Positions 8,075-42,682 of a stretch of DNA of 42,682 nt are shown piece by piece. Position 1 is the first letter of the stretch; every line of letters starts with the position of its first letter. The notes under the pieces are model-generated. The model was not told where the DNA came from, searched no databases, and saw only the letters and a program-made list of their open reading frames with translations. The position numbers and the translations under genes were made by a program. This stretch comes from Alphaproteobacteria bacterium (GTDB lineage Bacteria; Pseudomonadota; Alphaproteobacteria; Micropepsales; Micropepsaceae), in the NCBI GenBank assembly GCA_016792565.1, contig JAEUMK010000004.1, positions 1 through 42,682 of the forward strand. The letters are read 5' to 3'.

Positions 8075-8080
8075 CGGCGT

Positions 8081-17296: not shown

Positions 17297-17303
17297 GGCG
17301 GCC

Positions 17304-21595: not shown

Positions 21596-21602
21596 GGCGG
21601 CG

Positions 21603-22361: not shown

Positions 22362-22364
22362 AGC

Positions 22365-24731: not shown

Positions 24732-24735
24732 GGGG
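24724..24735. repeat. Perfect palindrome at ppkA/PAAR convergence
   Basis: CCCCCTAGGGGG overlaps the ppkA stop codon and lies 9 bases beyond the stop of the convergent PAAR gene. It is symmetric for both transcripts, so it might slow or end both, but no T-run follows on either side. Confidence 0.4.
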
Positions 24736-24743
24736 CAGGCTGC

Positions 24744-25016: not shown

Positions 25017-25032
25017 GGCGTCGTCCTCGTTC

Positions 25033-26253: not shown

Positions 26254-26291
26254 AGGAACAACATCGAACGCGGGCGCGCGGCGATCAAGCG

Positions 26292-26867
26292 TCATGCAGA
26301 CGGGAGTCCGCTGCAGGCAAGCTGATTTCCGCGCTCCAGGAAGGCGGACTTGGTGTCGGCGATCAGCGCCGGCTGGACCCGGACGGCGGCGAGGGCCACA
26401 GCCGCCGCGACCATGCGGCCGCACAGTTCGGGGGCCGGCGGCACCTGCTGCGGACAGCCCGGCGCGGCGAGCGAGCCGCCCGACAGGAAGACGGCGAGCG
26501 CCAGCAGGGCCTCGGGGCTGGCGTACTCGGCGGCGCCGGCCGCCTCGAAGGCGACCCGCCGGCGTTCGTCGACCGGATCGTCCAGCCAGGCCGCGACGGC
26601 CGAGGACGCGGCGGTGTCGGCCGGGCGCAGGCGGACGGCGCGCGCCGTCCGGCCGAGGCAGTCCCTGCCCCAGGCGACCGCCACGCGGCGGGGCAGGGCG
26701 GCCGCCAGGAAGGCCAGCGCGTCATCCAGCGCCCCCTCGGCGCGCAGCCGCGCGAAATAGATCTCGGGCGGCTCGTCCTCGATCAGCGCGGCCGCTCCCC
26801 GCTCGCTCAGCTTGACGAAATCGGCCACCTGACCGGCCAGCGACCATTGCACGGCATCCCACATCAT
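26292..26867 (-). CDS. T6SS-associated protein of unknown function (possibly DUF6931)
   Basis: This 191-residue, mainly helical, Ala-rich protein lies between vgrG (11 bases upstream) and fha in a tight leftward unit. It begins MMWDAVQWSLAGQVADFVKL and has IYFARLRAEGALDDALAFLA, followed by ALPRRVAVAWGRDCLGR. The EAGxxxEALxFLAxALPRREAVWW-like pattern recurs in small proteins coded beside fha and vgrG genes; I think this family is DUF6931, but I have not verified that. No signal peptide or membrane helix is visible. Its place between spike and FHA genes suggests a cytoplasmic accessory role in spike loading or phospho-regulation; nothing in the sequence shows a reaction. Confidence 0.75.
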   Translation of the reverse strand: MMWDAVQWSLAGQVADFVKLSERGAAALIEDEPPEIYFARLRAEGALDDALAFLAAALPRRVAVAWGRDCLGRTARAVRLRPADTAASSAVAAWLDDPVDERRRVAFEAAGAAEYASPEALLALAVFLSGGSLAAPGCPQQVPPAPELCGRMVAAAVALAAVRVQPALIADTKSAFLERGNQLACSGLPSA

Positions 26868-26878
26868 CGCTGCCTCCG

Positions 26879-28747
26879 TCAGTTGATCATCACGGTGCCG
26901 CCCTTGGCGACCAGCATGCCCGTGCCGTCGATGATCGTGGTCGGCCCGGTCACCTTGGCCATGCTCATGCCCTCCACCGTCACCATGGGCGCCTTGATCG
27001 TGATGCCCGACTGGTTGATCACGATCGAACTGGCGCCGACCTTGAGTTCGATGCTCTGCATCGCCTCGGTCGTCTGCGAGCCGGCATCGATCTTGATCGC
27101 GTGGTTGCCCATCGTGATCTTGAGCGTGTCGTTGCCCTTGTCGAACGTCGTCGTCCGGTCGCCCTTCTGGATCGTGCGGGTCTCGTTGTTGGTGATCGTC
27201 GTCTTGAGGTCGTTGAGGATCTCGACGGTCTGGTCCTTCTGGGCGTGGATGTAGATCTCCTCGCTGCCCGCCTTGTCCTCGAATCGCAGTTCGTTGAAGC
27301 CGCCGCCGCCCTTGGAGGAGTCGGTCTTGATCGTCGACTTCGTCTTCTCGCCCGGCAGGCTGTAGGGCAGATCGTTGCGGCCGTTATAGACGCACCCGGT
27401 GACCAGCGGGCGGTCGGGATTGCCGTCGATGAACTCGACGATCACCTCCTGCCCGACGCGCGGCGTGAAGAGCGCGCCCCATCTGGCGCCGGCCAGGCCC
27501 TGGGCGACGCGGATCCAGCACGAGCTCTTCTCGTCCCTGGAGCCGTAGGTATCCCAGTGGAAGGCGACCTTGATGCGGCCGTATTTGTCGGTCTCGATTT
27601 CCTCGCCGCCCTTGCCCGTGACGATCGCGGTCTGCGCCCCGATGATGCGCGGCCGCGCGGTATCCAGCGGCATCCTGAACGGCGTGTCTGCGGGGATCGC
27701 CAGGATATCGACCCGCGGCGGGCCGCCGCCCATGGCGCCCGAGTGATAGCTGTCGCCCTGGATCCGGTGGCGCGCTTCGAGCACGACATAGTCGGCGTTC
27801 TCGCGGTCGATCTGGTGCTCGGTAAGCGAGAACTTCGATCCGGCGATCAGGCCGACCGCATCGCCCGACGCGCTCACCACATGGCGCAGCGCCCGGTCGG
27901 CCTCCAGGCGGACCTTGGCGTAGCGCGCGCCGGTCGTGCGGTCCGCGAAGCCGCCGGGGTGGTCGAGCTTCTCGACATCGTCGCGATCGTGCTTGGAGGG
28001 AGCGGCTTCCTCCACCTTCATCGGCTCGGGCGTCTCGAAGTTGAAATCGGTGAATTTCCGCTTGGCCGTGCCGAGGCCGACATGGGGCGACCATTCGTCG
28101 AGATGGTCGCGCTCGCGGAACGCCTCGCCGGCCGGTCCCGACGGGACGTAGGGCAGCGCGTCGTAGCCGGTCGCCGTCTGGTGGATGGACTTGCGGTCGG
28201 CGATCACCAGGCGGTGGCCGTTCGTGTCCATCCTGAAGAAGTAGAAGATGCCTTCCTCTTCCATCAGCCGCGAGAGAAAGTCGAAATCGCTCTCGCGGTA
28301 CTGCACGCAGAAGACCCGCTTGGGGTAGGAGCCTTCGAGCGTGATGTCGCGGCGATTGAGGCCGCGCCGGTTGAGAACGTCCGAGATGATTTCCGGGACC
28401 GACATGTCCTGGAAGATCCGGGTGTCGGTATTGCGCGACAGGAACCAGAACTCCGGTCTCAGCGTGAGGTGGTAGACGAACCCGCCGCGATCGGTGCCGC
28501 CATAGGTCAGCCCGGCGCAGAGGCCGTGGAAGGAGCGCACCACGCCCGCGTCATTGTGGTAGGACGCCGAACACGGCTTGCCCAGCAGGTCCTTCGGGTC
28601 GATGTCGGGCGACTCGGACAGCGCCGCCACCCGGTACTCGAACGGCGCCCCGATGCGCTCGAAGGCGTTGAGCGACATGAACAGCAGCCGGTCTTCGCCC
28701 AGCGGTGTCGTCAGCCTGGCGGTTCTGGTGTCCTGGGTCGGGGGCAT
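26879..28747 (-). CDS. vgrG: VgrG spike protein (TssI)
   Basis: This 622-residue protein forms the trimeric puncturing spike. The ATG at the complement of 28745-28747 is preferred because GGAG lies about 9 bases upstream and TARLTTPLGEDRLLFMSLNA is the usual gp27-like start; an open frame extends a further 35 codons without conservation. The gp27-like part (about 1-370) contains RFEYRV-type (APFEYRVAALSE), YRESDFDFLSRLMEEEGIFY and related motifs. The gp5/OB domain follows (about 385-480: GRIKVAFHWD, WGALFTPRVGQEVIVEFIDG, NPDRPLVTGCVYNGRNDLPY). A beta-helix tail ends at GMLVAKGGTVMIN. No C-terminal effector domain is present, so the spike must carry cargo through PAAR or adaptors. It is the first gene of the leftward unit. 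Confidence 0.95.
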   Translation of the reverse strand: MPPTQDTRTARLTTPLGEDRLLFMSLNAFERIGAPFEYRVAALSESPDIDPKDLLGKPCSASYHNDAGVVRSFHGLCAGLTYGGTDRGGFVYHLTLRPEFWFLSRNTDTRIFQDMSVPEIISDVLNRRGLNRRDITLEGSYPKRVFCVQYRESDFDFLSRLMEEEGIFYFFRMDTNGHRLVIADRKSIHQTATGYDALPYVPSGPAGEAFRERDHLDEWSPHVGLGTAKRKFTDFNFETPEPMKVEEAAPSKHDRDDVEKLDHPGGFADRTTGARYAKVRLEADRALRHVVSASGDAVGLIAGSKFSLTEHQIDRENADYVVLEARHRIQGDSYHSGAMGGGPPRVDILAIPADTPFRMPLDTARPRIIGAQTAIVTGKGGEEIETDKYGRIKVAFHWDTYGSRDEKSSCWIRVAQGLAGARWGALFTPRVGQEVIVEFIDGNPDRPLVTGCVYNGRNDLPYSLPGEKTKSTIKTDSSKGGGGFNELRFEDKAGSEEIYIHAQKDQTVEILNDLKTTITNNETRTIQKGDRTTTFDKGNDTLKITMGNHAIKIDAGSQTTEAMQSIELKVGASSIVINQSGITIKAPMVTVEGMSMAKVTGPTTIIDGTGMLVAKGGTVMIN

Positions 28748-28902
28748 GCGGCGGGTCTCCGGCGCGCAGTCGGCGCGCCGACTATGGAAACATAAAGGCG
28801 ACCGCCATGCACCATGCCACGGGCCGGGGCCTTGAAGGCGGCGGCCCCGCATGATCGAATCCTGACGCGCCTTTTCGGGAGGCGGCGGGGGAGGGTGTGT
28901 CG
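28748..28902. promoter_or_regulatory. Divergent vgrG / tssA control region
   Basis: These 155 bases separate divergent vgrG and tssA and should hold both promoters. They contain a perfect 16-base palindrome (28768-28783), an AT-rich patch just beside it (28784-28797, ATGGAAACATAAAG), and a stem-loop at 28825-28849 (CGGGGCC ... GGCCCCG, 11-base loop). A leftward -10-like CATAGT overlaps the palindrome edge. The strong GGGGGAGGG at about 28887-28895 is the tssA ribosome site. Confidence 0.5.
28768..28783. repeat. Perfect 16-base palindrome, candidate operator of the vgrG unit
   Basis: AGTCGGCGCGCCGACT is fully self-complementary and lies 20 bases upstream of the vgrG ATG next to an AT-rich patch. 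Its place between a likely leftward -10 and the start codon is typical of a repressor site. No known regulator consensus is recognised. Confidence 0.55.
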
Positions 28903-29958
28903 ATGAGCCTTGACGTCGAAGCGTTGCTGGCGCCGGTGTCGGACGAGGAGCCGGCCGGACCCGACCTCAGCTATGACCCTGATTTCAGGCGCATTTCCCG
29001 CGAACTCGATGCCGCGCTCGAAAAGGAGCGGCCGGGCGATGATCCCACCGTCGGCCCGGCCGTCGACACGGCCGTCGCGCTGCTCGGGCGCTCCAGGGAC
29101 CTGTGGATCGCCTCGCACGGCTTCTGCTTCTCGCTCTACAGCGGCGATCTGACGCGATGCGTCGGCCTGCTCGAAGCGATGGCCGGGATCGCGGAACGGT
29201 TCTGGGACACCTGCCATCCGGCCCTCGACGAAGGCTCCGACCCGGCCGGCGGCCGCCGCGAGGCCTGCAACCAGATCGCCAGCATCGGGCGCGCGGTGAA
29301 GCACCTCGACCGGCTCTACCTGCCGCCTTTGCGGTCGAAGGGCCGGATCTCGTTCAAGGACATTGTCGGCGGCGCCGATCCGAGCCATCGCGCCGCCCAG
29401 CTGATGGGCCAGATGCCCGAGCCGCTGCGCCGGGCGATCGACGAATCGACGCTCGAGGACTGGCAGGCGCTCGCCGACACGCTGACGGCGATGGCCGCCG
29501 CCTCGACCCGCCTGGCGGCCGCCTTTGCCGATCATGTCCCGGGCCAGGGCCCGGACCTGTCGGCGTTCGACCAGCAGGTCGCGCGCATGAACGAGTTCGC
29601 GCAAGCCGTGGTTGCCAGGAAGTCGCCGGTTGCCGAAGCCGAAGCGGGCGATGAAGGCGCCTCGTCCGGCGGCGGCGACGCGGAGGGCTATGCCGGCCCG
29701 TCGCTGTCCGGCCCGATCCGCAGCCGCAGCCAGGCGCTCGCCCAGCTCGAGGCGGTCAAGGCGTTCTTCGCGGCGACCGAACCCTCCAGCCCGCTGCCGC
29801 TGCTGATCGATCGCGCCGTGCGTCTGGCCGGGATGGATTTCATCCAGATCCTGCAAAGCCTGGCGCCGACCGGCGTCGAGGAGGCCTCGCGGGTGCTGGA
29901 ACCGTCGCCGGGATCGGCCGACGCGTCGGGCGGCCAGGACTCGTCGGAGACCTACTGA
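28903..29958 (+). CDS. tssA: Type VI secretion protein TssA
   Basis: This 351-residue protein caps or primes the growing sheath-tube. The ATG at 28903 is chosen over an in-frame GTG at 28897, because the GGGGGAGGG ribosome site ends 7 bases before the ATG but only about 1 before the GTG. The ImpA_N domain (about 1-130) shows the family signature GPDLSYDPDFRRISRELDAA. A middle helical region (SLDDWQ-like TLEDWQALADTLTAMAAAS) and a disordered Glu/Gly/Ser-rich linker follow (AEAGDEGASSGGGDAEGY). A short C-terminal segment (SRSQALAQLEAVKAFFAATE, SPLPLLIDRAVRLAGMDF) matches the short class of TssA. It opens the second rightward unit. Confidence 0.93.
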   Translation: MSLDVEALLAPVSDEEPAGPDLSYDPDFRRISRELDAALEKERPGDDPTVGPAVDTAVALLGRSRDLWIASHGFCFSLYSGDLTRCVGLLEAMAGIAERFWDTCHPALDEGSDPAGGRREACNQIASIGRAVKHLDRLYLPPLRSKGRISFKDIVGGADPSHRAAQLMGQMPEPLRRAIDESTLEDWQALADTLTAMAAASTRLAAAFADHVPGQGPDLSAFDQQVARMNEFAQAVVARKSPVAEAEAGDEGASSGGGDAEGYAGPSLSGPIRSRSQALAQLEAVKAFFAATEPSSPLPLLIDRAVRLAGMDFIQILQSLAPTGVEEASRVLEPSPGSADASGGQDSSETY

Positions 29959-30104
29959 GCCAAAGACCCTGACGGCGCCGCGGTGGCGCATGTGTCGCAG
30001 GCGAAGCGCTTGCAGGAATGGCCCGGGCGAGCAATCCTCCCGGCGCATTCCCGACAGGGCGGCGCTCCCTTGCCGCCCGTGGAACCCTGCCAGGGAGAGA
30101 TGAC
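29959..30104. other. tssA-tssB gap with two stem-loops
   Basis: This 146-base gap is the longest within the tssA-tssH unit. It contains GGGCGGC-8 bases-GCCGCCC (30057-30078) and CCCT-GCC-AGGG (about 30085-30095); the second overlaps the AGGGAGAG ribosome site of tssB. A weaker stem GCGCC/GGCGC lies at 29975-29989. These could set relative translation of TssA and the sheath genes, or mark a separate promoter. No convincing small gene is seen. Confidence 0.4.
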
Positions 30105-30614
30105 ATGGCCAAGAGCGGCGCCCGCTTCATCAAGGGCAATCGGCCCCCGCGAGTACACATCGAGTACGAAGTCGAGACCTACGGGTCGCGCGAGAAGATC
30201 GAATTGCCCTTCATCACGGGCGTCCTCTCCGATCTGTCGGGCAAGTCCGAGGTCGCCAAGAAGGAACTTTCGGAGCGCGATTTCGTCGAGTTCGACGTCG
30301 ACAATTTCGAGGATCGCATGAAGGCGATCGCCCCGCGCGCCGCCTTCGTGGTCGACAACACGCTGAGCGGCGAAGGCAAGCTGGGGATCGACCTGACCTT
30401 CAACTCGATGAAGGACTTCACCCCCGGCCGGATCGCCGAGATGGTGCCGGCGCTGAAGAAGCTGCTCGACGCCCGTCAGGAGCTGTCCGACCTGATGACC
30501 TACATGGACGGCAAGGACGGGGCGCAGGGCCTTCTGGAGAAGGTCCTCAACGATCCTGAACTGCTCAAATCGCTCACGTCGGCGCCCAAGCCCGACGCCG
30601 AGCCCAAAGCCTGA
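30105..30614 (+). CDS. tssB: Type VI contractile sheath small subunit TssB
   Basis: This 169-residue protein pairs with TssC to form the contractile sheath. The ATG at 30105 follows CAGGGAGAG and gives the expected N-terminus MAKSGARFIKGNRPPRVHIE. Conserved TssB segments include EIPFITGVLSDLSG-like (LPFITGVLSDLSG), KELSERDFVEFDVDNFEDRM and NTLSGEGKLGIDLTFNSM with DFTPGRIAEMVPAL. The C-terminal tail is Pro/Lys-rich. It is followed after 17 bases by tssC. Length and motifs are normal; I see no deviation. Confidence 0.97.
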   Translation: MAKSGARFIKGNRPPRVHIEYEVETYGSREKIELPFITGVLSDLSGKSEVAKKELSERDFVEFDVDNFEDRMKAIAPRAAFVVDNTLSGEGKLGIDLTFNSMKDFTPGRIAEMVPALKKLLDARQELSDLMTYMDGKDGAQGLLEKVLNDPELLKSLTSAPKPDAEPKA

Positions 30615-30631
30615 CCACCGGGAGCGCATCG

Positions 30632-32122
30632 ATGTCGGAAGCGAAACGCGAAGAAGGCAAAGAAGCCGGGTTGGCAACGGGCGGCGACGACTTTGCGGCG
30701 CTGCTGCAGAAGGAGTTCAAGCCCAAGACCGACCGCGCCAAGGAGCGGGTCGAGGCGGCGGTGCGCACGCTGGCCCAGCAGGCGCTCGACAACGCCAAGG
30801 TCGTGGGCAGCGACGTGTTCGCCACGATCGACGCCCTCAAGGCGGAACTCGATCGCAAGCTGAGCGAGCAGATCAATCACATCCTGCACAACCCCGAGTT
30901 CCAGCAGCTGGAATCCTCGTGGCGCGGCCTGTCGTATCTCGTCGACAATTCCGAGACGGGCAAGGACGTGAAGATCAAGGTGATGAACATCACCAAGTCC
31001 GAACTCGGCAAGATGTTCAAGCAGTACAAGGGCCAGTCCTGGGACCAGAGCCCGCTGTTCAAGAAGGTCTACGAGGCCGAGTACGGCCAGCTCGGCGGCC
31101 AGCCCTACGGCACGCTGATCGGCGACTATTACTTCGATCACACGCCGCCGGACGTCGACATTCTCGCCGGTCTCGCCAAGATCGGCTCGGCTGCGCACGC
31201 ACCGTTCATCTCGGCGGCCGGTCCCTCGCTGATGGGCATGGACAACTGGCAGCAGATCGTCAATCCGCGCGATCTGGGCAAGCTGTTCGACACGATCGAC
31301 TACGCCGAGTGGCGCGCCTTCCGCGAATCGGAAGATTCCAAATACGTCGCGCTGGCGATGCCGCGCTTCCTCTCGCGCCGCCCCTACGGCGCCAAGAGCG
31401 AGCCGGTGGACGAGTTCGCCTTCGAGGAGGATTCGGGCGGCGGCGACGCGTCGAAATACGCCTGGAACAACGCCGCCTACGCGATGGCGGTGAACATCAA
31501 CCGTTCGTTCAAGGACTATGGCTGGTGCTCGCGCATCCGCGGCGTCCAGTCCGGCGGCCTGGTGGAGGACCTGCCCTTCGCCACCTTCCCGACCGACGAT
31601 GGCGCGGTCGACATGAAGTGTCCGACCGAAGTCGCGATCAGCGACCGCCGCGAGGCCGAATTGTCGGCGGCCGGCCTGCTGCCGCTGATCCATCGCAAGA
31701 ACACCAACGCCGCCGCCTTCCTCGGCGCGCAGTCGGCCCAGAAGCCCAAGCGCTACGAGGATCCGGCCGCGACCTCGAACGCCAATCTGGCCGCGCGTCT
31801 GCCCTATCTCTTCGCCAGCTGCCGCTTCGCGCACTACCTCAAGTGCATGGTGCGCGACTGGGTGGGCAAGTTCGCGGACGCCGCTTCGCTGGAGCGCGAC
31901 CTGAATTCCTGGGTTCAGCAATATGTCGATCAGCAGCCCGACAGCTCGACCGAGGAAACCAAGTCGCGCCAGCCGCTGCGCGACGCATCGATCGTGGTGA
32001 CGGCCGACGAGGAAAACCCCGGTTACTACAAGGGGGCGTTCCGCTTCGTACCGCACTATCAGCTGGAAGGCATGGACATCGGCATCTCGATGGTCTCCCG
32101 CCTTCCCAAGGGCAAGAATTAG
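30632..32122 (+). CDS. tssC: Type VI contractile sheath large subunit TssC
   Basis: This 496-residue protein is the main sheath subunit. Family segments are clear: the N-terminal TssB-interacting helix region (DFAALLQKEFKPKTDRAKER), NPEFQQLESSWRGLSYLV, LIGDYYFDHTPPDVDILAGL, FISAAGPSLMGM, WRAFRESEDSKYVALAMPRF and the C-terminal VVTADEENPGYYKGAFRFVP with QLEGMDIGISMVSRLP. The C-terminal PHYQLEGMDI region is where ClpV gains access after contraction. The gene follows tssB directly and precedes hcp by 66 bases. It is full length and canonical. Confidence 0.97.
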   Translation: MSEAKREEGKEAGLATGGDDFAALLQKEFKPKTDRAKERVEAAVRTLAQQALDNAKVVGSDVFATIDALKAELDRKLSEQINHILHNPEFQQLESSWRGLSYLVDNSETGKDVKIKVMNITKSELGKMFKQYKGQSWDQSPLFKKVYEAEYGQLGGQPYGTLIGDYYFDHTPPDVDILAGLAKIGSAAHAPFISAAGPSLMGMDNWQQIVNPRDLGKLFDTIDYAEWRAFRESEDSKYVALAMPRFLSRRPYGAKSEPVDEFAFEEDSGGGDASKYAWNNAAYAMAVNINRSFKDYGWCSRIRGVQSGGLVEDLPFATFPTDDGAVDMKCPTEVAISDRREAELSAAGLLPLIHRKNTNAAAFLGAQSAQKPKRYEDPAATSNANLAARLPYLFASCRFAHYLKCMVRDWVGKFADAASLERDLNSWVQQYVDQQPDSSTEETKSRQPLRDASIVVTADEENPGYYKGAFRFVPHYQLEGMDIGISMVSRLPKGKN

Positions 32123-32188
32123 CCGCAAAGGCCGTTCACACTGAGTGCCGGCCGCGAGGTTCGCGGATCAAATTGGAGGATTTAGGCA
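32123..32188. promoter_or_regulatory. tssC-hcp gap with hairpin next to the hcp ribosome site
   Basis: CCGCGA-GGT-TCGCGG (32152-32166) is a perfect 6-base stem with a 3-base loop, ending 7 bases before the strong GGAGG ribosome site of hcp. The following stretch ATCAAATTGGAGGATTTAGG is much less GC-rich than the flanks, so the start region should be open. The layout suits differential expression of the abundant Hcp relative to TssC, through mRNA processing or stabilisation; this is inference. Confidence 0.45.
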
Positions 32189-32674
32189 ATGGCTTCGGAC
32201 TATCTGCTTGAGATCGAAGGTATCAAGGGTGAGTCAGGGGACAGCAAGCACAAGGAGACGATCGAAGTCTCCTCGTTCTCGTGGGGGCTTTCCAACGCGG
32301 GTTCGTTCCAGTCGGGCGGCGGCGGCGGCGCCGGCAAGGCGAGCTTCCAGGACGTCCACTTCACGACGACGGTGAGCAAGGCCTCGCCCATGCTGGCGAC
32401 GTTCTGCGCCACCGGCAAGCACGTGAAGAAGGCGACGCTGTTCGTCCGCAAGGCCGGCGGCAAGCAGGAAGACTTCTACACGATCGTGCTCGAAGACCTG
32501 CTCGTCTCGTCCTACCAGAGCGGCGGCCACGAAGGCAGCGCCAGCCTGCCGACCGACCAGTTCTCGCTCAACTACGCGAAGATCGACTTCGGCTACAAGA
32601 TGCAGGATTCGAAGGGCGGCGTGACCGGCCCGACGAACTTCAAGTACGACATCAAGGCCAACAAAACGCTCTGA
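32189..32674 (+). CDS. hcp: Hcp tube protein (TssD), copy 1
   Basis: This 161-residue protein forms the hexameric rings of the inner tube. It begins MASDYLLEIEGIKGESGDS and has the family core TIEVSSFSWGLSNAG, SFQDVHFTTTVSKASPML, ATFCATGKHVKKATLFVRKA, FYTIVLEDLLVSSYQSGG and DQFSLNYAKIDFGYKM. A glycine-rich surface loop (SGGGGGAGKA) is typical of many Hcp1-like proteins. The strong GGAGG ribosome site and less GC-rich leader suggest high expression. This is the more canonical of two tandem Hcp genes and probably the main tube subunit. Confidence 0.96.
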   Translation: MASDYLLEIEGIKGESGDSKHKETIEVSSFSWGLSNAGSFQSGGGGGAGKASFQDVHFTTTVSKASPMLATFCATGKHVKKATLFVRKAGGKQEDFYTIVLEDLLVSSYQSGGHEGSASLPTDQFSLNYAKIDFGYKMQDSKGGVTGPTNFKYDIKANKTL

Positions 32675-32706
32675 TCGGATTTGGGTTCGGGTAGATCGGG
32701 CACAAC

Positions 32707-33183
32707 ATGGCGGGTAGCGACTATCTGCTGGTGATCGACAAGGTGCGGGGCGAATCCAAGGATCAGGATTTCCCCGACTCCATCGAGGTGAAGGGCTGGT
32801 CGTACGGTGCGATCAGCCCCACCGACCCGGTCAACAAATTGGCGACCGGCCAGCCGCAGTTCTCCGATCTGACGATCGTCAAGGGCGTGGACAAGACCTC
32901 GCCGCATCTGCTCGAGCGGCTGGGCCGGAACATGGTCGCCGACACCGCGGCGCTGATCTGCCGCAAGTCGGGCGGCGACGCGCACGGCTATCTGCGCATC
33001 GAGATGAAGAAGGTGCGCGTGCGCTCGGTGAGCGTGAAGGCGGCCGAAGCGGCGGGCATCATGCCGGTCGAGACGCTCGTCCTGAGCTACCAGAAGATCA
33101 AGTGGATCTACAAGGAACAGGCCGCGCAGGGCTCGATGAAGGGCGATGTCGAGTACGAGTACGACGCCGCAGCGAACAAATGA
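32707..33183 (+). CDS. Hcp-like tube protein, diverged copy 2
   Basis: This 158-residue Hcp-family protein lies 32 bases after copy 1. It begins MAGSDYLLVIDKVRGESKDQ and keeps the Hcp outline: SIEVKGWSYGAISPT, PQFSDLTIVKGVDKTSPHLL, AALICRKSGGDAHGYLRIEM and ETLVLSYQKIKWIYKEQ. It lacks the glycine-rich loop of copy 1, has a KVRVRSVSVKAAEAAGIMPV insertion-like stretch, and shares only the fold pattern, so the two are old paralogues. It could form mixed or cap rings, act as a carrier for a specific effector, or be an alternative tube. Its terminal EYEYDAAANK parallels the KYDIKANKTL end of copy 1. It lies 28 bases before tagJ. Confidence 0.9.
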   Translation: MAGSDYLLVIDKVRGESKDQDFPDSIEVKGWSYGAISPTDPVNKLATGQPQFSDLTIVKGVDKTSPHLLERLGRNMVADTAALICRKSGGDAHGYLRIEMKKVRVRSVSVKAAEAAGIMPVETLVLSYQKIKWIYKEQAAQGSMKGDVEYEYDAAANK

Positions 33184-33211
33184 GGCGGTCCGGCCGCCCG
33201 AGGGAGGCGTC

Positions 33212-34003
33212 ATGCCGTCGCCAGATGAACTGATCCGCCAGGGCGACGTCGCCGGCGCCCGCGCGGCACTGATCGACGAGGTGCGGGCCCGCCCGGACGA
33301 CCGCCGGGCCCGCATGTTCCTCAGCCAGGTGCTGATGGTGCTGGGCGAGTGGGATAAGGCGCTCACCCACATGAAGGCGATCGCCAATCTGTCGCCCGAG
33401 GCGATGACGCTGTTCACCGCCTACGACCGCGCGATCGCTGCCGAGAAGCAGCGCGAGGCGGTGTTCGCCGGCAAGGCCGCGCCGCAGCCGCTGGTCGAGG
33501 CCGCGCCGTGGTTCGCCGATCTGCTCGGCGCCATCGCCGCCGAGGCCAGGGGCGACGCCGCCACCGCCGCGTCGCTGCGCACCAGCGCCTTCGACGGCGC
33601 GCCCGATACGCCGGGCGAGGCCGACGGGACGGCCTTCACCTTTCTCGCCGACGCCGACGCCCGCTTCGGGCCGTCGCTGGAGGTCATCCTCGACGGCCGC
33701 TACGGGCTGGTGCCGTTCGAGTCGGTGACCGAACTCACCTGCGATGGCGTCACGGATCTGCGCGACCTCGTCTTCCTGCCCGCGCGGCTTACGCTGAGGA
33801 CCGGGCAGGCCGGCAACGTCTTTCTGCCGGCCCGCTATCCGGGCGCCGCGGTCGACGAAGACCCGCTCGTCAAGCTGGCGCGCAAGACCGAGTGGGTCGA
33901 CCACGGCGATCTCGGCAATGCCGGGCGCGGTCAGCACCTTCTGGACGCCGACGGCGCCGAGATCTCGTTGCTCGCGCTGCGCCGCCTGACCTTCGCCGCC
34001 TGA
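33212..34003 (+). CDS. tagJ: Type VI accessory protein TagJ (ImpE family)
   Basis: This 263-residue protein begins at ATG 33212, preceded by AGGGAGG at 5 bases; an open frame extends upstream without conservation. The N-terminal tetratricopeptide-like helices (PSPDELIRQGDVAGARAALI, RRARMFLSQVLMVLGEWDKA) and the C-terminal ImpE domain (LDGRYGLVPFESVTELTCDG, DLRDLVFLPARLTLRTGQAG, VFLPARYPGA) match the SciE/ImpE family. In Pseudomonas the homologue HsiE1 binds the N-terminus of the TssB sheath protein and is thought to modulate ClpV access. It is coded between hcp2 and tssE; 4 bases separate it from tssE. Confidence 0.9.
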   Translation: MPSPDELIRQGDVAGARAALIDEVRARPDDRRARMFLSQVLMVLGEWDKALTHMKAIANLSPEAMTLFTAYDRAIAAEKQREAVFAGKAAPQPLVEAAPWFADLLGAIAAEARGDAATAASLRTSAFDGAPDTPGEADGTAFTFLADADARFGPSLEVILDGRYGLVPFESVTELTCDGVTDLRDLVFLPARLTLRTGQAGNVFLPARYPGAAVDEDPLVKLARKTEWVDHGDLGNAGRGQHLLDADGAEISLLALRRLTFAA

Positions 34004-34007
34004 CGCC

Positions 34008-34529
34008 ATGGCGAAGTTCCGGCCGAGCCTGCTCGATACCCTGCTGGCGGGATCGCGCGCCTCGGCCGAGGATCCGGAGGTGCAGTCGGAGACGCTGTTT
34101 CCCGGTCTCAGGCTCTACAGCCTCGACCGGATGTCGGAAACCTCCTTCCTCGACACGCTGCGGCGCGACCTCTCCTGGCTGCTGAACACCGTCAGGCTCG
34201 AGGAGACCGACGATCTCTCCGCCGCGCCGGAGGTCGCCCGCTCGGTGGTCAATTTCGGGATTCCCGACTTTGCGGTGCGGACCTACGCGCAGGTCAACGT
34301 CTTCGAGGCCGCCGCGACGCTCGCCGGCACCATCCGGACGTTCGAGCCGCGCATCGATCCGCGCTCGCTGTCGGTCAGGGGCGAGAAGACCATGCGCGAC
34401 GACGTCGTGCAGGCGCTGGTCTTCCATATCGCGTGCAATGTCGGGCAGGATCAGGATCCGCTGCGCGCCGGGTTCAAGACGGAGATCGACGTCGAAACCG
34501 GGGACGCGCGCCTCGAGCAAAGAAGGTAG
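34008..34529 (+). CDS. tssE: Type VI baseplate protein TssE (gp25-like)
   Basis: This 173-residue protein is the gp25-like baseplate wedge component. The core RRDLSWLLNTVRLEETDDLS, ARSVVNFGIPDFA and the signature TIRTFEPRIDPRSLSV are present. The E-P-R of TFEPRI is the diagnostic tripeptide needed for sheath polymerisation in phage gp25 homologues. The C-terminal strand DPLRAGFKTEIDVETGDARL closes the fold. It starts 4 bases after tagJ and ends 7 bases before tssF, within one transcript. Length is normal for the family. Confidence 0.95.
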   Translation: MAKFRPSLLDTLLAGSRASAEDPEVQSETLFPGLRLYSLDRMSETSFLDTLRRDLSWLLNTVRLEETDDLSAAPEVARSVVNFGIPDFAVRTYAQVNVFEAAATLAGTIRTFEPRIDPRSLSVRGEKTMRDDVVQALVFHIACNVGQDQDPLRAGFKTEIDVETGDARLEQRR

Positions 34530-34536
34530 GCCCCGC

Positions 34537-36435
34537 GTGGATCCGCGTCTCGTCGAGTTCTACGATCAGGAACTCAAGCATCTGCGCGAGACGGCGCGCG
34601 AGTTCGGGGCGGCCTATCCGACGCTTGCCGCGCGCCTCGGCGTCAATGCGCCCGGCGAGGCCGACCCCTATGTCGAGCGGCTGCTCGAAGGCGTCGCCTT
34701 TCTCGCCGCGCGCGTGCAGCTGAAGCTCTCGGACGAGTTCCCGAAATTCACCCAGCACCTGATCGACGCGATCTACCCCCATTATCTGGCCCCGACGCCC
34801 TCGATCGCCGTGCTTTCGTTCGAGCCCAAGGCCGGCGATCCGGCGCTCGACGAGGGCCTCGTCATCGCCCGCGGCACCGCCTGCCGGATCCCGGCGCCCG
34901 AGACCAAGCGCGCCGACTGCGTCTTCACCACCGGGCACGACGTCCGCCTCTGGCCGCTGAAGGTGACGCGGGTCGAGTACCTGGCCAACCGCGCCGCCGT
35001 GGCGGTGGCGGCCGGGGAGTCGGGCCTGACCGGCGAGGGCGGCATCCTCGTGCGCATCGAGGCGACCGGCGCCATGCCGCTGTCGGCGCTGGCGATCGAC
35101 GATCTGACCTTCTACCTCGGCGGCGCCGAATCCCTCGCCGGCCGCATCTACGAGCAGCTGGCCGGAAACGCCACCGGCGTCGCCGTCGCCTCGATCGACG
35201 GCCGCCGTCACGTCGTCCGGGCCGGCGGCGCGGAACGGGTATCGACCCCCGCCTTCGCGGACGACGCCGCGCTGCTGCCGCTCGACGGACGCTCGTTCCG
35301 CGGCTACCGCATCCTGCAGGAGTATTTCGCCTGCCCCGAGCGCTTCCAGTTCGTTCGCCTGTCGGGCCTGCGGGCCGCGCTGTCGCAGGTGAAAGGCAAG
35401 ACGGCCGAGATCCTCGTCTCCACCTCCAGCGTCGACAAGCGCCTCGCCGGCGCGCTGAACGAGGGCGCGATGCGCCTTTTCTGCGCGCCGGCGATCAACC
35501 TCTTCGAGAAGCGCTGCGATCCCGTGCTGCTGGACAGCGGCGAGCACGAGTTCCGCATCGTGCCCGAGCGGATGCGGCCGCTCGACCACGAAATCTACCG
35601 CCTGCTGGAGGTTTACGCCGAGGCCGGCGCCGGCCGGCCGCGCCGCACCTATCATCCGATCTATCGCGCCGAGCCGCGCCTGCGCGAGGGCCAGGAGAGC
35701 AGCTTCTACACGGCGCGGCGCGTGCCGACGCGCCTCTCCGCGCTGCATCCCGCGCAGCGCGCCTCCGACTATGCCGGCACCGATCTGTGGCTGGCGCTCG
35801 CCGATCCGCCGTCGCCGCGCGGGCAGCCCGACCAGCTGAGCGTCCGGGCGCTCTGCACCAATCGCGACATCGCCGACACGCTGCGCGGCAGCGGCGCCCA
35901 GCTCGAATTCCAGCTGGCCGACGCCTCCTATCTCAACGCCATCAAGGCGGTGCTGCGGCCGACCCGGCCGCGCCTGCCGGTCGGCTTCGAGGATGCGCGC
36001 CTGCTGGACGGCGGCCGTTCGGGCGGCGACCGCTTGTGGCGGCTGATCAGCCATTTGAGGCCCAACTACGAATCGCTGTTCGCCGACGACGCGGCGGCGG
36101 CGCGCTTGCGCGAGCACCTCACGCTCTACGCCCGGCTGGACAACCCGACCGACAAGCAGCAGATCGACGGCCTGACCGGCGTGCGCGAGGGCCCGGTCTT
36201 CCGCCGCGTGTCGTCCGCCGATCCGCTCGCCTTCGCGCGGGGCCGCCGTCTCGAGCTGACGCTCGACGAGCGCAGCTTCCCCGATGGCGGCGCTTTCCTG
36301 TTCGGCCAGGCGATCGACCTGTTCCTGTCGGAGTTCGTGTCGGTCAATTCCTTCGTCGCGACCGAGCTCGTCACCCCGCAGCGGGGCCGCATCGCGGCGT
36401 GGGGTCCGCGCCGCGGCGAACGGCCGGTCATATGA
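34537..36435 (+). CDS. tssF: Type VI baseplate protein TssF
   Basis: This 632-residue baseplate protein starts at GTG 34537, giving VDPRLVEFYDQELKHLRETA, the expected TssF N-terminus; GAAGGTAGG is the ribosome site. An open frame continues upstream through tssE but is not conserved. Conserved segments are GEADPYVERLLEGVAFLAAR, LSDEFPKFTQHLIDAIYPHY and RGTACRIPAPETK. Others are RILQEYFACPERFQFVRLSG, INLFEKRCDP, TIQF-like YHPIYRAEPR and LFLSEFVSVNSFVATEL at the end. It overlaps tssG by four bases (ATGA), so TssF and TssG, which form one wedge, are translationally coupled. Confidence 0.96.
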   Translation: MDPRLVEFYDQELKHLRETAREFGAAYPTLAARLGVNAPGEADPYVERLLEGVAFLAARVQLKLSDEFPKFTQHLIDAIYPHYLAPTPSIAVLSFEPKAGDPALDEGLVIARGTACRIPAPETKRADCVFTTGHDVRLWPLKVTRVEYLANRAAVAVAAGESGLTGEGGILVRIEATGAMPLSALAIDDLTFYLGGAESLAGRIYEQLAGNATGVAVASIDGRRHVVRAGGAERVSTPAFADDAALLPLDGRSFRGYRILQEYFACPERFQFVRLSGLRAALSQVKGKTAEILVSTSSVDKRLAGALNEGAMRLFCAPAINLFEKRCDPVLLDSGEHEFRIVPERMRPLDHEIYRLLEVYAEAGAGRPRRTYHPIYRAEPRLREGQESSFYTARRVPTRLSALHPAQRASDYAGTDLWLALADPPSPRGQPDQLSVRALCTNRDIADTLRGSGAQLEFQLADASYLNAIKAVLRPTRPRLPVGFEDARLLDGGRSGGDRLWRLISHLRPNYESLFADDAAAARLREHLTLYARLDNPTDKQQIDGLTGVREGPVFRRVSSADPLAFARGRRLELTLDERSFPDGGAFLFGQAIDLFLSEFVSVNSFVATELVTPQRGRIAAWGPRRGERPVI

Positions 36436-37406
36436 GCGGCGAGGGGCGCCCATCGGCCGATGTCTTCGGCCTGCTGCGGGACCTCGAGCGCGAGTCGCCG
36501 GGCAAGCCGCGCATCGGCAAGTCGCTGCGCGCCGAGGACGACATCGTCCGCTTCTCCCAGGCGCCGCATCTGTCCTTCGCCCCCGCCAGCCTCGACCGGC
36601 TGGATGCGGCGGGCGGGCCGGTGCCGCTGCGCATCTTCTTCATGGGGCTGCTGGGACCGATGGGTCCGATGCCCCTGCAGATGTCGGAGATCGCGATCTA
36701 CGAGCGCGGCTACGCCAAGGAGCGGCCCTATGGCGCGTTCCTGGACGTCCTCTCCAACCGGATGGTCCAGCTCTTTTTCCGCGCCTGGGCCGATTCCGAA
36801 CCGATGGCGCACCAGGACCGGCCGGGCAGCGACGTGTTCCAGCACTTCGTCGGGGCGCTGGGCGGCCTGGTCGATGCCGCGCCGCACGACGAGCCCGACC
36901 GGGTGCAGCTTGCCCTCATGGGGTTCGCTGGCCAGACGGCCGCCCGGCGCAATCCCGGCGCGATCTGCGATACGGCGCGCGCGCTGCTCGGCGTCGAGGT
37001 CGACATCGACGAGTTCGTCGGCGTCTGGCGCGACCTCGATCCCTCCGACGCGACGCGGCTGGGCGGTGCCAATTGCGGCCTCGGCCGCGGCGCGACCTCG
37101 GGGACGGCGATCTACACCGTCCAGGACACCTGCCTCGTCCGGCTGAAGTTCCGGCGCTTCGCCGATTTCGAGGCGCATCTGCCGGACGCCGCCGGTTTCG
37201 ACCTGGCGGCGCGGGTGCTCGCCGCCCTGATGCCGGCGCATCTGGACTGGCGGCTCGAATACGAACTCGACCGTTCCGAAACGCAGCCCGCCCGCCTCGG
37301 CGGCGCGACGCGGCTCGGCTGGACGGGATGGATGGGAAAGCAGGACGAGGGGCCGCCGCGGCGCGACCTTCGCCTCTCTCCCCCTGGGGCAATGCGCGCA
37401 TTCTAA
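36432..37406 (+). CDS. tssG: Type VI baseplate protein TssG
   Basis: This 324-residue protein completes the TssEFG wedge. It begins MSGEGRPSADVFGLLRDLER at the ATGA overlap with tssF. Family segments are PRIGKSLRAEDDIVRFSQAP, LSFAPASLDRLD, RIFFMGLLGPMGPMPLQMSE, NRMVQLFFRAWADSEPM and GFAGQTAARRNPGAICDTAR near the centre. The later LGRGATSGTAIYTVQDTCLV matches the C-terminal beta region. The final DLRLSPPGAMRAF tail is short. A 56-base gap with an inverted repeat separates it from tssH. Confidence 0.95.
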   Translation: MSGEGRPSADVFGLLRDLERESPGKPRIGKSLRAEDDIVRFSQAPHLSFAPASLDRLDAAGGPVPLRIFFMGLLGPMGPMPLQMSEIAIYERGYAKERPYGAFLDVLSNRMVQLFFRAWADSEPMAHQDRPGSDVFQHFVGALGGLVDAAPHDEPDRVQLALMGFAGQTAARRNPGAICDTARALLGVEVDIDEFVGVWRDLDPSDATRLGGANCGLGRGATSGTAIYTVQDTCLVRLKFRRFADFEAHLPDAAGFDLAARVLAALMPAHLDWRLEYELDRSETQPARLGGATRLGWTGWMGKQDEGPPRRDLRLSPPGAMRAF

Positions 37407-37462: not shown

Positions 37463-40102
37463 ATGGCGGACATCAGCCGGGGCGCGCTCTTCGGACGCCT
37501 CAATCCCACGGCTCTCAAGAGCCTGGAGAACGCGACGACGTTCTGCAAGATGCGGGGCAATCCCTATGTCGAGCTGGTGCACTGGCTGCACCAGATGCTG
37601 CAGGACCAGCGCAACGACCTCGCCGCCATCCGCTCGAAGTTCGGCATCGACGATGCCCGCCTCGCCCAGGACGTGGTCGAGGCGCTGAACGCGCTGCCGC
37701 GCGGCGCCACCGCGATCTCGGACTTCTCGCCCCTGATCGAGGAACTGGCCGAGCGCGCCTGGATCTATGCCTCGCTCGCCTTCTCGGCCGCCAAGGTGCG
37801 CACCGGCCATCTGGTCGTGGCGGCGCTGAAGACGCCGTCGCTGCGCAATGCGCTGCAGTCGATCTCGCTGGAGTTCCGCAAGATCAACGCCGAGACGCTG
37901 AGCGCCGAGTTCGCGCAGATCGTCGCGCCGTCCTCCGAGGCCGACGTCGCGGCGTCGAGCGCCCCGGCGGGCGACAGCGGCGACGGCGCGGGCACGCTCG
38001 GCGGCGGCGGGGACGGCAAGGCGCTCGCCCAGTATTCGATCGACCTGACCGAGAAGGCCCGCAAGGGCGAGATCGAGACGATCATCGGCCGCGACGCCGA
38101 GATCCGCCAGATGATCGACATCCTGCTGCGCCGCCGCCAGAACAACCCGATCCTCACCGGCGAGGCCGGCGTCGGCAAGACGGCGGTCGTGGAAGGCTTC
38201 GCCAAGCGCATCGTCGACGGCGACGTGCCGCCTTCGATGAAGGACGTCTCGCTGAAGGTGCTCGATATCGGCCTGCTTCAGGCCGGCGCTTCGATGAAGG
38301 GCGAGTTCGAGAAGCGTCTGCGCGCCGTCATCGACGAGGTCGAGGCGAGCGAGAAGCCGATCATCCTCTTCATCGACGAGATCCACACGCTGGTGGGGGC
38401 CGGCGGCACGGCCGGCACCGGCGATGCCGCCAATCTGCTGAAGCCCGCGCTGGCGCGCGGCAATCTGCGCACCATCGGCGCCACCACCTGGGCCGAGTAT
38501 CGCAAGTACATCGAGAAGGACCCGGCGCTGACCCGCCGCTTCCAGGTGGTCAACGTCAAGGAGCCCGAGACCGCCGTCGCGGTGGCGATGATCCGCAACG
38601 TCGCCAAGGGCATCGCCAAGCATCACGACGTCATCGTCCTCGACGAGGCGATCGCCGCCGCCGTCGTGCTCTCGCAGCGCTATGTTCCCGCCCGCCAGCT
38701 GCCCGACAAGGCGGTGAGCCTGCTCGACACCGCCTGCGCCCGCGTGGCGGTGAGCCAGCATGCGACGCCGGCCGCGCTCGAAGACGCCAAGCGCCGCATC
38801 GAGATCCTCGACATGGAAATCGAGATGGCGACGCGCGAGCGCCAGTCCGGCTTCACGACCGGCGAGAAGCTCGATGCTCTCGCCAAGGACAGGGACGAGG
38901 CGAGCGCCCGGGTCGCCGAACTCGAGGCCCGCCTCGCCAGCGAGAAGGCCGCCATCGCCAAGATCGCGACCGCCCGCGACGCGCTGGTCAAGAAGCGCGA
39001 GGCCGGCGAGGACGACACCGCCGAACAGGCGGCGCTCGACGCGGCGCTGGAGGAATCGCGGACCGCCCAGGGCGACAGCCCCATGGTGTTCGCCGCCGTC
39101 GACCGCGACGCCGTCGCGGCGATCGTCGCCGAATGGACCGGCGTTCCGATCGGCCGCATGGTCAAGGACGACTTGAAGGCCATCCTCACCATCGCCGATC
39201 GCCTCAAGGAGCGGGTCATCGGCCAGGACCACGCGATGGACGCCATCGCCAAGCGGCTGCAGACCAGCCGCGCCAAGCTGGACAATCCCGACAAGCCGAT
39301 CGGCGTCTTCATGCTGTGCGGCCCCTCCGGCGTCGGCAAGACCGAGACGGCGCATGCCCTCGCCGACCTCATGTATGGCGGCCAGAACAGCCTGATCGTC
39401 ATCAACATGAGCGAGTTCCAGGAGGCGCACACCGTCTCGACCCTCAAGGGCGCGCCGCCCGGCTATATCGGCTACGGCGAGGGCGGCGTCCTCACCGAGG
39501 CGGTGCGGCGGCGGCCCTATTCGGTCGTCCTGCTCGACGAGATCGAGAAGGCGCACAGCGACGTCCACGAGATGTTCTTCCAGGTCTTCGACAAGGGCCA
39601 CATGGAGGACGGCGAGGGCCGGATGATCGACTTCCGGAACACGCTGATCCTGCTGACCTCCAATGTCGGCACCGAGGTGATCGCGACCGCCTGCGAGGAC
39701 GAGGAGACGAAGCCGGATTCCGAGGCGCTGGCCAAGGCGCTCAGGCCCAAGCAGCTGGAGAAGTTCCCGCCGGCCCTGCTGGGACGCCTCGTCACGATCC
39801 CCTACTTCCCGCTCAGCAACCAGATGCTGGGCTCGATCGTGCGCCTCCAGCTCGACCGTATCGTGAAGCGGGTCGCCGCCAACCAGGGCATCGAGCTGAA
39901 ATACGGTCAGGACGTCATCGACCTGATCGTCAGCCGCTGCACCGAGGTGGAGAGCGGCGGGCGCATGATCGACACGATCCTGACCAATACGCTGCTGCCG
40001 CAGATCAGCGTCGAGCTGCTGACCCGGCAGATGTCGGGCACGCCGGTGAAGTCGATCACGGTCAGGGCCGAGAACGGCTCGTTCGCCTACGACTACGCCT
40101 AG
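37463..40102 (+). CDS. tssH: Type VI sheath-recycling AAA+ ATPase TssH (ClpV)
   Basis: This 879-residue hexameric ATPase disassembles contracted sheaths. An N-terminal ClpV-type domain (about 1-165, [40 protein letters not shown]) replaces the usual Clp_N, and a Gly-rich linker follows. AAA domain 1 has Walker A GEAGVGKT (233-240), the Walker B region [16 protein letters not shown] and the [20 protein letters not shown] segment. A middle coiled-coil domain (about 440-550) is followed by AAA domain 2 with GPSGVGKT (620-627) and [15 protein letters not shown]. The pore loop is [12 protein letters not shown], and a C-terminal D2-small domain closes the protein. Both ATPase sites look intact. It is the last T6SS core gene of the rightward unit. 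Confidence 0.97.
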
Positions 40103-40196
40103 CTCCGGCCGGGCGGCGGGGCGGGCCGGCGCTCTCGCCAAGGGGGCGGCGGTGGACTACGATTTGCCGGGGACGGAACGCGCATTGGGGGAAACC

Positions 40197-41111
40197 GTGA
40201 TCGGTCGCATCGTGTTGGCGGGGGTGCTGGTTGTGGCGGCGTCGGCCGGCGTCGCCGAGGCCAAGAAGAAGCCTAAGCCGCCCGAACAGACCTGGCGCCT
40301 GGTGCTCTACAAGAGCGGCGGCTATGGCGGCGACGCGCTGGACGTCATCGCCGACGTGCCCGAACTCGACGATTACGGCTTCGACGACAACGTCTCCTCG
40401 TTCCAGGTGATCGACGGCTACTGGCAGCTCTGCGAGGGCGAGAACTACACCTCGACCTGCGTCACGGTCGGGCCCGGCGCCTATCCCGACCTCGGCGCCA
40501 TCGGGTTGCGCAACAATGCGCTCGAGTCGGTGCGCCGCATGCAGCCGCCGGGCCCGCCGCCGCCGCCGCCGCGCCCCGATCTCACGCGCAAGGCCGAGGC
40601 CCGCGCCAGCTACGACGCCACCATCGAGGGCGAAGGCGAGGCGCGCATCGTCAACGAGGTCGCCTTCCGCGGCATCACCGTGCGGGTCACCGTGAAGAAC
40701 GAAGGCAGCGTCGCCGCCGAGGCCTCGACCCTCAAGATCGAGCCCGGCAAGAAGATGGCCGACGTCGCCAGCTACATCACGGTCGGCGAGCACGAATGCG
40801 GCGAGGGCCAGGTGCCCTGGCCGGCCAAGGAGGGCCGCCAGACGACCTGCGCGCCGCTGCAGAAGGGCGAGATCGTCGCCAAGGCCGAGGGCGGCGCCGC
40901 CAATTGCGCCATCCCCAGGCTGGAGCCGGGCGGCAGCGCCCGCTGCGTGGCGGTGTTCAGCGTGCTCTACAATTATCTCGTGCCCCAGTTCGGCGACTGG
41001 CATGTCGTGGCCACCGCCGATGCCGGCAACCGGGTCAAGGAAGAGAACGAGAAGAACAACGGCGCGGGCGAGCAGATCCGCGTCAAGGGCGACGACCTGC
41101 CGCCGCCGTGA
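40197..41111 (+). CDS. Secreted protein with beta/gamma-crystallin-like and CARDB-like domains
   Basis: This 304-residue protein starts at GTG 40197, chosen because GGGGGA lies 5 bases upstream and a clean signal peptide then begins the protein (residues 1-22, cleavage after AEA); an earlier in-frame GTG at 40152 would bury the signal. Residues 33-114 form two Greek-key motifs (LYKSGGYGGD...FDDNVSSFQV; YWQLCEGENYTSTC...RNNALESVRR). The first has an intact D-D-x-x-S-S calcium motif at 63-68; in the second (N106-N107-x-x-E110-S111) Glu replaces Ser/Thr. A Pro-rich hinge (117-127) leads to a CARDB-like beta domain (about 150-297: ITVRVTVKNEGSVAAE). Six cysteines may form disulfides. It lies 94 bases downstream of tssH on the same strand. 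Function is unknown; calcium binding and envelope location are inferred. Confidence 0.8.
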   Translation: MIGRIVLAGVLVVAASAGVAEAKKKPKPPEQTWRLVLYKSGGYGGDALDVIADVPELDDYGFDDNVSSFQVIDGYWQLCEGENYTSTCVTVGPGAYPDLGAIGLRNNALESVRRMQPPGPPPPPPRPDLTRKAEARASYDATIEGEGEARIVNEVAFRGITVRVTVKNEGSVAAEASTLKIEPGKKMADVASYITVGEHECGEGQVPWPAKEGRQTTCAPLQKGEIVAKAEGGAANCAIPRLEPGGSARCVAVFSVLYNYLVPQFGDWHVVATADAGNRVKEENEKNNGAGEQIRVKGDDLPPP

Positions 41112-41142: not shown

Positions 41143-42024
41143 ATGGCGGCCTTGCGTTCGGCGTTCGATTTCGCGCGCTTCTTTCTGGATGTCGGCTGGG
41201 CGAGCGGGGAGTACGCCTCGAAGATCGCCTTCGATCCCATGTTGCGACGGCTCGCGCCGCGCGCGCCTTCCGCACGGCCGGTGCTGACGCTCCCCGGATT
41301 CGGCGGCCCCGAGATCTCGCTCCAGCCGCTCAACGCCTTCCTCAACCGCCAGGGCTTCGCCGCCGAAAGCTGGGGCCTCGGCACCAATCGCGGCCCACGC
41401 CACGCCGCCGCCCTGCCCGAGATGATCGAGCGCCTCGCCCCCAAGCTGAAGCGCATGGCCGACAAGGGCGGCGCCAGGGTGTCTCTGGTGGGCCAGAGCC
41501 TCGGGGGCATCTATGCCCGCGAGATCGCGCGCGAGATGCCCGACCTCATCGATCGGGTCATCACGCTGGGCAGTCCGGCCTATCTGCGCCGCGACGGGCT
41601 GGAGCACCTCAACGCCATGCTGCCCGTCGCGATGCGCCTGATGACCGGCAAGCGGACCGAGGATCACCTCGAAGACCATCCGGCCGAGCGGCTGCACGCG
41701 CCGCCGCCGGTGCCGCTGGTCGCCATCTACAGTGCGTTCGACGGCGTCGCCGCCGAGGCGGCGACCGCCATTCCCGCCGGCGAACTGACCATCGAGGGCG
41801 GCTTGCCGCGCGAGAATATCGAGATCGTCGGCTCGCATTGCGGGATGGCGGTCAACCCGGTCGTTCTGCTGGCCGTCTGCGACCGGCTGCTCGCCGATCC
41901 GGCCGCCTGGACGGCCTATGACGCGCGCGCCTATCTCAGTCCGGTGGGCAGGGCCCTGGCGCCGGTCTTTCATCCAGGCCTGCGCCACGCCGCCTGGCAG
42001 CGCTTTCCGCGGCGGCCGAAATAG
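41143..42024 (+). CDS. Alpha/beta hydrolase (lipase/esterase type)
   Basis: This 293-residue protein starts at ATG 41143 behind AGGAGGGCGG. The alpha/beta-hydrolase fold is shown by the first strand and oxyanion region (VLTLPGFGGPEISLQPL), the nucleophile elbow LVGQSLGG (Ser119), a likely acid at Asp200 (IYSAFDG) and a likely base at His232 (GSHCGM). VITLGSPAYLRRDG follows the elbow, as in triacylglycerol-lipase-like and PGAP1-like hydrolases. No signal peptide is visible, so it is probably cytoplasmic. It lies 31 bases after the crystallin/CARDB gene and may share its transcript. A T6SS phospholipase role is possible from position, but the same protein type is common as a housekeeping hydrolase. 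Confidence 0.85.
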   Translation: MAALRSAFDFARFFLDVGWASGEYASKIAFDPMLRRLAPRAPSARPVLTLPGFGGPEISLQPLNAFLNRQGFAAESWGLGTNRGPRHAAALPEMIERLAPKLKRMADKGGARVSLVGQSLGGIYAREIAREMPDLIDRVITLGSPAYLRRDGLEHLNAMLPVAMRLMTGKRTEDHLEDHPAERLHAPPPVPLVAIYSAFDGVAAEAATAIPAGELTIEGGLPRENIEIVGSHCGMAVNPVVLLAVCDRLLADPAAWTAYDARAYLSPVGRALAPVFHPGLRHAAWQRFPRRPK

Positions 42025-42092: not shown

Positions 42093-42160
42093 TCTCTCAC
42101 GGCGCGCGCGGGACTTCCCGGTTCGGCGCCCAAGAAACGCAAGAGACGATGGAGAGTGCT

Positions 42161-42682
42161 ATGGCCCCCCGTACTGTGAAGACGACTGCCAAGAAGACCG
42201 CCGCGAAGGTCAAGACCGCCGCCAAGGCCGCCCCCAAGGCCGCCGAGAAGGCGATGGACGCGTCGTTCGTCGCCAAGGCGCGCGAGGCGATCGAGGATCG
42301 CGTCGAGACGCTGACCGAGGGCGCGAAGGCCGCCTGGGAAAACGTCCAGGACCGCGTGAAGGCGGTTCGCGAGAACGCCGGCGACGCGCTCGGCGTCGTG
42401 CGCTCGTCGCTGGAAGTCGCCGGCGCGGGCCTGCGCGACGTCAACCTGAAGGTGATCGAGTTCGTCCAGGCCGACGCCAACACCTATTTCGACACCTTCA
42501 AGAAGGTCGCGGCCGCGAAGTCGGTCAAGGAAGCCTTCGAGATCCAGTCGGCCTATGTCCGCTCGCAGTTCCAGACCAGCGTCAAGAACGCCCGCACGGT
42601 CGGCGAACTGGCCGCGGAAGCCGCCAAGGGCGCCTTCAAGCCGGTCCAGAAGGGCTTCGCGAGCCTGCGCAAGGCCGCCTGA
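42161..42682 (+). CDS. Phasin (polyhydroxyalkanoate granule protein)
   Basis: This 173-residue protein coats PHA granules or acts in the associated stress response. The ATG at 42161 is chosen because GGAGAG (42151-42156) sits 4 bases before it; an in-frame ATG at 42149 would add MESA and overlap that site. Residues 1-35 are Lys/Ala-rich (TAKKTAAKVKTAAKAAPKAA), like the DNA-binding tails of PhaF/H1-type phasins. The remainder is an amphipathic helical phasin domain with FVAKAREAIEDRVETLTEGA, FVQADANTYFDTFKKVAAAK and EIQSAYVRSQFQTSVKNART. The stop codon occupies the last three bases of the window. No PHA synthase gene is present nearby in the window. Confidence 0.9.
   Translation: MAPRTVKTTAKKTAAKVKTAAKAAPKAAEKAMDASFVAKAREAIEDRVETLTEGAKAAWENVQDRVKAVRENAGDALGVVRSSLEVAGAGLRDVNLKVIEFVQADANTYFDTFKKVAAAKSVKEAFEIQSAYVRSQFQTSVKNARTVGELAAEAAKGAFKPVQKGFASLRKAA

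Follow-up and report, generated by a model that had tools for sequence, protein, structure and literature searches.

A Sec-exported protein joining a beta/gamma-crystallin domain to a CARDB domain is encoded behind tssH at the T6SS cluster of an alphaproteobacterial genus

The window, by which we mean the whole analysed stretch of 42,682 nucleotides, corresponds to a single contig in the 3.07 Mb Micropepsaceae assembly GCA_016792565.1. It carries a T6SS cluster whose last core gene, tssH (TIGR03345, 1236 bits against 885), is followed after 94 bp and on the same strand, as the initial annotation had stated, by a gene for a protein with a crystallin and a CARDB domain (Table 1). The rest of the cluster comprises tssK, tssL, tssM, tagF, genes for a PP2C phosphatase and a kinase, tagH, a DUF6931 gene and vgrG (the last three on the minus strand), together with tssA, tssB, tssC, two hcp genes, impE/tagJ, tssE, tssF and tssG; tssC, tssF and tssG were identified in the window without a profile, from their place in the cluster and from a gene order that the congeners share. 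The system as a whole (14523-40102) includes threonine-phosphorylation parts (kinase, PP2C, FHA, TagF), an OmpA-type TssL and two divergent Hcp genes. Upstream of it (351-11950) lie polysaccharide export and glycosyltransferase genes. On its other side, the pair of hydrolase and phasin genes (41143-42682) is kept in another genus too (G012, 53% and 41% identity), which suggests a role around polyhydroxyalkanoate granules.

Table 1. Positions of the crystallin-CARDB gene, its parts and its neighbours in the window.
Feature	Coordinates	Strand	Details	Basis
T6SS cluster without tssH	14523..37406	mixed		profiles and conserved order
tssH (clpV)	37463..40102	+	last core T6SS gene upstream	profile TIGR03345
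TCGCCA-N17-TACGAT element	40135..40163	+	probable gene-specific promoter	conserved in three of four species
crystallin-CARDB gene	40197..41111	+	304 aa, GTG start	translation, Pfam, third-position GC
Sec signal peptide	40197..40262	+	MIGRIVLAGVLVVAASAGVAEA; type I, no lipobox	sequence; also in three orthologues
beta/gamma-crystallin domain	40299..40541	+	residues 35-115, two Greek keys	Pfam, alignment, AlphaFold, Foldseek
proline-rich hinge	40545..40580	+		sequence; low AlphaFold confidence in that segment
CARDB-like domain	40674..41063	+	residues 160-289	Pfam, alignment, orthologues
alpha/beta hydrolase gene	41143..42024	+	goes with the phasin gene, not with the T6SS	Pfam
phasin gene (Phasin_2)	42149..42682	+		Pfam

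The crystallin-CARDB reading frame is real and had been delimited correctly. Its third-position GC amounts to 94%, and the GTG start is directly preceded by GGGGGA, both of which are kept in the closest orthologue. An alternative in-frame GTG at 40152 is unlikely to be the true start because it lies inside a conserved upstream element. Against the orthologue of the congener G003 we obtained a dN of 0.23 and a dS of 0.51 (ratio ~0.46) and, judged by this comparison, the gene is under purifying selection; the corresponding ratios were ~0.13 for tssH, ~0.21 for tssE, ~0.27 for the hydrolase gene and ~0.58 for hcp1.

The predicted architecture agrees with the initial description of a signal peptide, a crystallin-like domain with one intact and one degraded calcium motif, a polyproline hinge and a CARDB-like domain. 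The signal peptide is typical, with cleavage between AEA and KKK, and a lipobox is absent from all four orthologous proteins (that of the window and those of the congeners G002, G003 and G004). The hinge (PPGPPPPPPRPDL) separates the two domains, both of which exceed their Pfam cut-offs in the window protein and in the three others, so that the same crystallin plus CARDB plan is found in all four.

The crystallin half matches Crystall PF00030 with an E-value of 1.3e-17 (64.1 bits, cut-off 25). In an AlphaFold model of the mature protein, computed with a four-sequence alignment, this half was moderately confident (pLDDT ~71-81) and the second half poor, and Foldseek matched the first half to crystallins (2bv2, E 1.8e-7, TM 0.84 by target length); a crystallin fold, whose absence would have spoken against the initial reading, is thus predicted. 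The canonical calcium motif is N/D-N/D-x-x-S/T-S (PMC3551895). Motif 1 (DDNVSS, residues 63-68) is canonical here and in the other three orthologues, whereas motif 2 (NNALES, residues 106-111) departs from the consensus by a Glu in place of Ser/Thr at position 5. The orthologue of G003 has NNRLES, and those of G002 and G004 carry the canonical NNELSS. Since Glu at this position is common among crystallin domains of related bacteria, the change is best read as a lineage variant and not as decay of the window gene alone. Similarly, the Y-x4-Y/F-x-G signature is fitted by the first key (YKSGGYGG) and not by the second (CEGENYTS) in the window protein, while the second key fits it in two orthologues (YPDKNYGG).

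An Inhibitor_I36 (SMPI-type) reading, in which a crystallin-like fold would serve a secreted protease inhibitor or toxin, would accommodate the weak I36 similarity that we observed (E 0.031 in the window protein, reaching 3.1e-5 in an orthologue), although such similarity is expected anyway if I36 shares the fold. The window protein stays below the I36 cut-off (14.6 versus 21.1), the crystallin score is far higher in every orthologue and no toxin domain is present; we therefore rejected this identity and consider it most improbable.

The second half matches CARDB PF07705 with an E-value of 4.9e-8 (33.5 bits, cut-off 22.7), and the three orthologues score 36.9, 22.9 and 30.9 bits. It ends in D-x-G-x-x-V-x-E-x-N-E-x-N-N, as is typical of CARDB, and differs from PF07705 by a cysteine-bearing insertion with four conserved cysteines (201, 218, 237 and 250), which are invariant across the four orthologues. 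Modelled alone, the C-terminal half was beta-rich (pLDDT 64.5, pTM 0.68); Foldseek returned no convincing neighbour for this model (the top matches had an rmsd above 8), and the best match of the C-terminal profile to PDB sequences had an E-value of 0.25. The CARDB assignment is consequently one of sequence profile, valid in all four orthologues. Identity to the two distant orthologues amounts to 65% and 58% for the CARDB half but to 40% and 41% for the crystallin half, which marks the CARDB half, as far as alignments tell, as the more constrained part of the protein.

Upstream of the gene, a TCGCCA-N17-TAnnnT element occurs with identical spacing in three species, and G004 has a degenerate version alone. 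A scan of 214 kb of genus DNA on both strands found the pattern three times, in each case ahead of the crystallin-CARDB gene, a count that measures specificity and not significance as the pattern was drawn from the same alignments. The window copy scores 8/12 against the sigma-70 consensus and was not picked up by a promoter scan at a 9-of-12 threshold. These observations suggest a weak gene-specific promoter. Between tssH and the gene no terminator-like site was found on the plus strand, and the upstream RNA structure was no better than that of shuffles.

Within the 96 genomes of the family examined, full-length orthologues are restricted to the congeners G002, G003 and G004 besides the window genome, so that four of the five congeneric species examined have the gene. 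An alignment-based search matched three congener loci, including that of strain SO-S41 (AP024629), which is a cultured forest-soil strain (PMC8297455); a single-sequence search of genome contigs gave no matches. Beyond these, the C-terminal profile matched G013 weakly and in part (E 7.6e-4), plasmid records matched the crystallin domain alone, and among 385 class and 398 phylum genomes the window genome was the sole match to the C-terminal profile. Across the family, class and phylum genomes we thus found no CARDB domain of the window type outside the genus.

All four gene-bearing species share the order tssG, tssH, crystallin-CARDB gene, hydrolase, phasin. The gene directly follows tssH in three of them, and in G004 the two are separated by an inserted gene for a PCuAC copper chaperone (L032, 10835-11371, minus strand). 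TssH relatives are found in five of the 96 family genomes, four of which encode the crystallin-CARDB protein, compared with none of the other 91; the fifth, G005, has a 53% identical TssH and no such gene. The naive Fisher value of this co-occurrence is 1.5e-6, with the four carriers being close relatives. The remaining congener, G001, lacks tssH, tssC, tssM and the crystallin-CARDB gene. It has pp2c and tagH as immediate neighbours of the hydrolase and phasin genes (L068, G001:C44, 6611-10138), and the T6SS core and the crystallin-CARDB gene have therefore apparently been lost from an ancestral cluster. The remnant retains phosphorylation-pathway parts only. Because roughly a single gain and a single joint loss within one lineage would explain this history, and the loss may have been a single contiguous deletion, the linkage between gene and T6SS is suggestive only.

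The survey of homologues proposed by the initial annotation accordingly gave a divided answer. Full-length homologues do adjoin tssH and are not mostly located away from T6SS genes; they belong to a single genus and to about two events, and the crystallin-only homologues are not linked to a T6SS. Elsewhere in the class, the closest TssH proteins reach only 50-55% identity. The crystallin and CARDB profiles had no match when run on 16 other alphaproteobacterial T6SS loci (14 around the nearest TssH relatives plus those of G005 and G050), none of which has a crystallin gene nearby. Crystallin matches were present in 16 of 56 non-congeneric relatives, in genomes without TssH.

Several of these relatives encode exported proteins that combine a signal peptide and a crystallin domain with CVNH or PAN (L016, L006, L029, L005 and L010), and some genomes have several crystallin copies. 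CVNH and PAN domains are generally carbohydrate- or protein-binding modules. The window protein differs from them in its partner domain, CARDB, and in its T6SS neighbourhood, but otherwise looks like the same plan with CARDB as the binding module, an analogy that favours reading it as an exported binding or adhesion protein. Microbial exported beta/gamma-crystallins such as the Yersinia crystallin YPO2884 and vibrillin are likewise exported or multidomain proteins with two-Greek-key domains and N/D-N/D-x-x-S/T-S motifs (PMC5650977, PMC3551895). Compared with these, the window protein has one crystallin domain fused to CARDB, an altered motif 2, a T6SS neighbourhood and a genus-restricted C-terminal domain. 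In the openly licensed literature searched we found neither a crystallin-CARDB pairing nor a T6SS-linked crystallin-fold protein, although each domain by itself is known.

The protein is thus probably a binding or adhesion protein that is exported to the envelope and stabilised by calcium, and the question is whether it works with the T6SS. It might have no functional tie to the secretion system at all, having come to lie there by chance and having been co-deleted in one species. This is a possibility of some weight, although we think it doubtful: the gene probably has its own promoter, the equally syntenic hydrolase and phasin genes are not T6SS genes, the crystallin-only proteins of the family are independent of T6SSs, and the insertion in G004 shows that adjacency to tssH is not strict, whereas in no genome of the family (96), class (385) or phylum (398) was the gene found apart from a T6SS. 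Several points weigh directly against a link: the upstream element suggests transcription apart from the T6SS operon, the joint loss could have been one deletion, the co-occurrence, being that of one lineage, is not independent evidence, and G005 has a TssH but no such gene. A working link is nevertheless plausible, and we hold a role connected with the T6SS to be slightly likelier than none.

If there is such a link, the protein could guard its producer in the periplasm against its own or foreign T6SS effectors. Like immunity proteins of the Tli/Tsi type, it is exported and has its gene at a T6SS locus, and its signal peptide, its neighbourhood and its faster evolution than tssH (dN/dS ~0.46 versus ~0.13) would fit such armour. 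It differs from them as a large modular binding protein without a cognate effector gene next to it: its neighbours are the core gene tssH and the hydrolase gene, and the latter stays beside the phasin gene without T6SS or crystallin-CARDB gene in G001 and G012. Genes for immunity proteins commonly move together with changing effectors, but the crystallin-CARDB gene holds the same position in four species. With no effector gene next to it and a hydrolase gene that is kept where the T6SS is absent, a specific immunity function is disfavoured and we regard it as unlikely. The same persistence disfavours an effector-immunity pair of the hydrolase and the crystallin-CARDB protein.

None of the four gene-bearing genomes has a PF12790 (T6SS-SciN) match for tssJ, and an exported beta-rich domain might conceivably replace this missing structural part on the periplasmic or outer-membrane side. 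Such a role appears very improbable. Other TssJ-negative systems (G005, G224 and G357) have no such gene nearby, the lack of a lipobox means that there is no outer-membrane lipid anchor, and no TssJ structure was among the matches listed for the C-terminal model. Agrobacterium, moreover, secretes Hcp although no TssJ homologue has been identified for its T6SS (PMC3702570). With neither a PF12790 match in the genome nor a lipobox in the protein, TssJ identity itself was rejected.

We tentatively prefer, at somewhat less than even confidence, a Sec-exported soluble binding protein of the envelope or surface that helps the T6SS on its contact or envelope side. Its gene, lying where the T6SS cluster ends, would be transcribed from a promoter of its own. 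Located in the cell envelope, the protein would bind calcium through motif 1, and its crystallin domain would form a rigid, protease-resistant module. The hinge would then present the immunoglobulin-like CARDB domain, probably stapled by two disulfides; this half, being the better conserved, would probably be the working half and bind a partner or glycan. Its contribution might be adhesion to neighbouring cells or wall reinforcement, for example, and would not be that of an injected effector or specific antitoxin. The gene seems to be retained only in the lineage carrying this T6SS. In a bolder and rather improbable version, this calcium-responsive exported protein, specific to the genus, would have become an accessory dedicated to a T6SS without TssJ, where it would steady the contact with the target or brace the envelope while the machine fires; we found no description of a crystallin-fold T6SS accessory family in the openly licensed literature.

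As one gene-bearing species is cultured and completely sequenced (strain SO-S41), the T6SS link is testable. Without such a link, the protein would be another case of crystallin modules serving as building blocks of exported bacterial proteins. If the link is functional, a calcium-dependent exported accessory would have been added to a TssJ-less alphaproteobacterial T6SS, a type of system in which the connection between the machine and the outer envelope is poorly explained.
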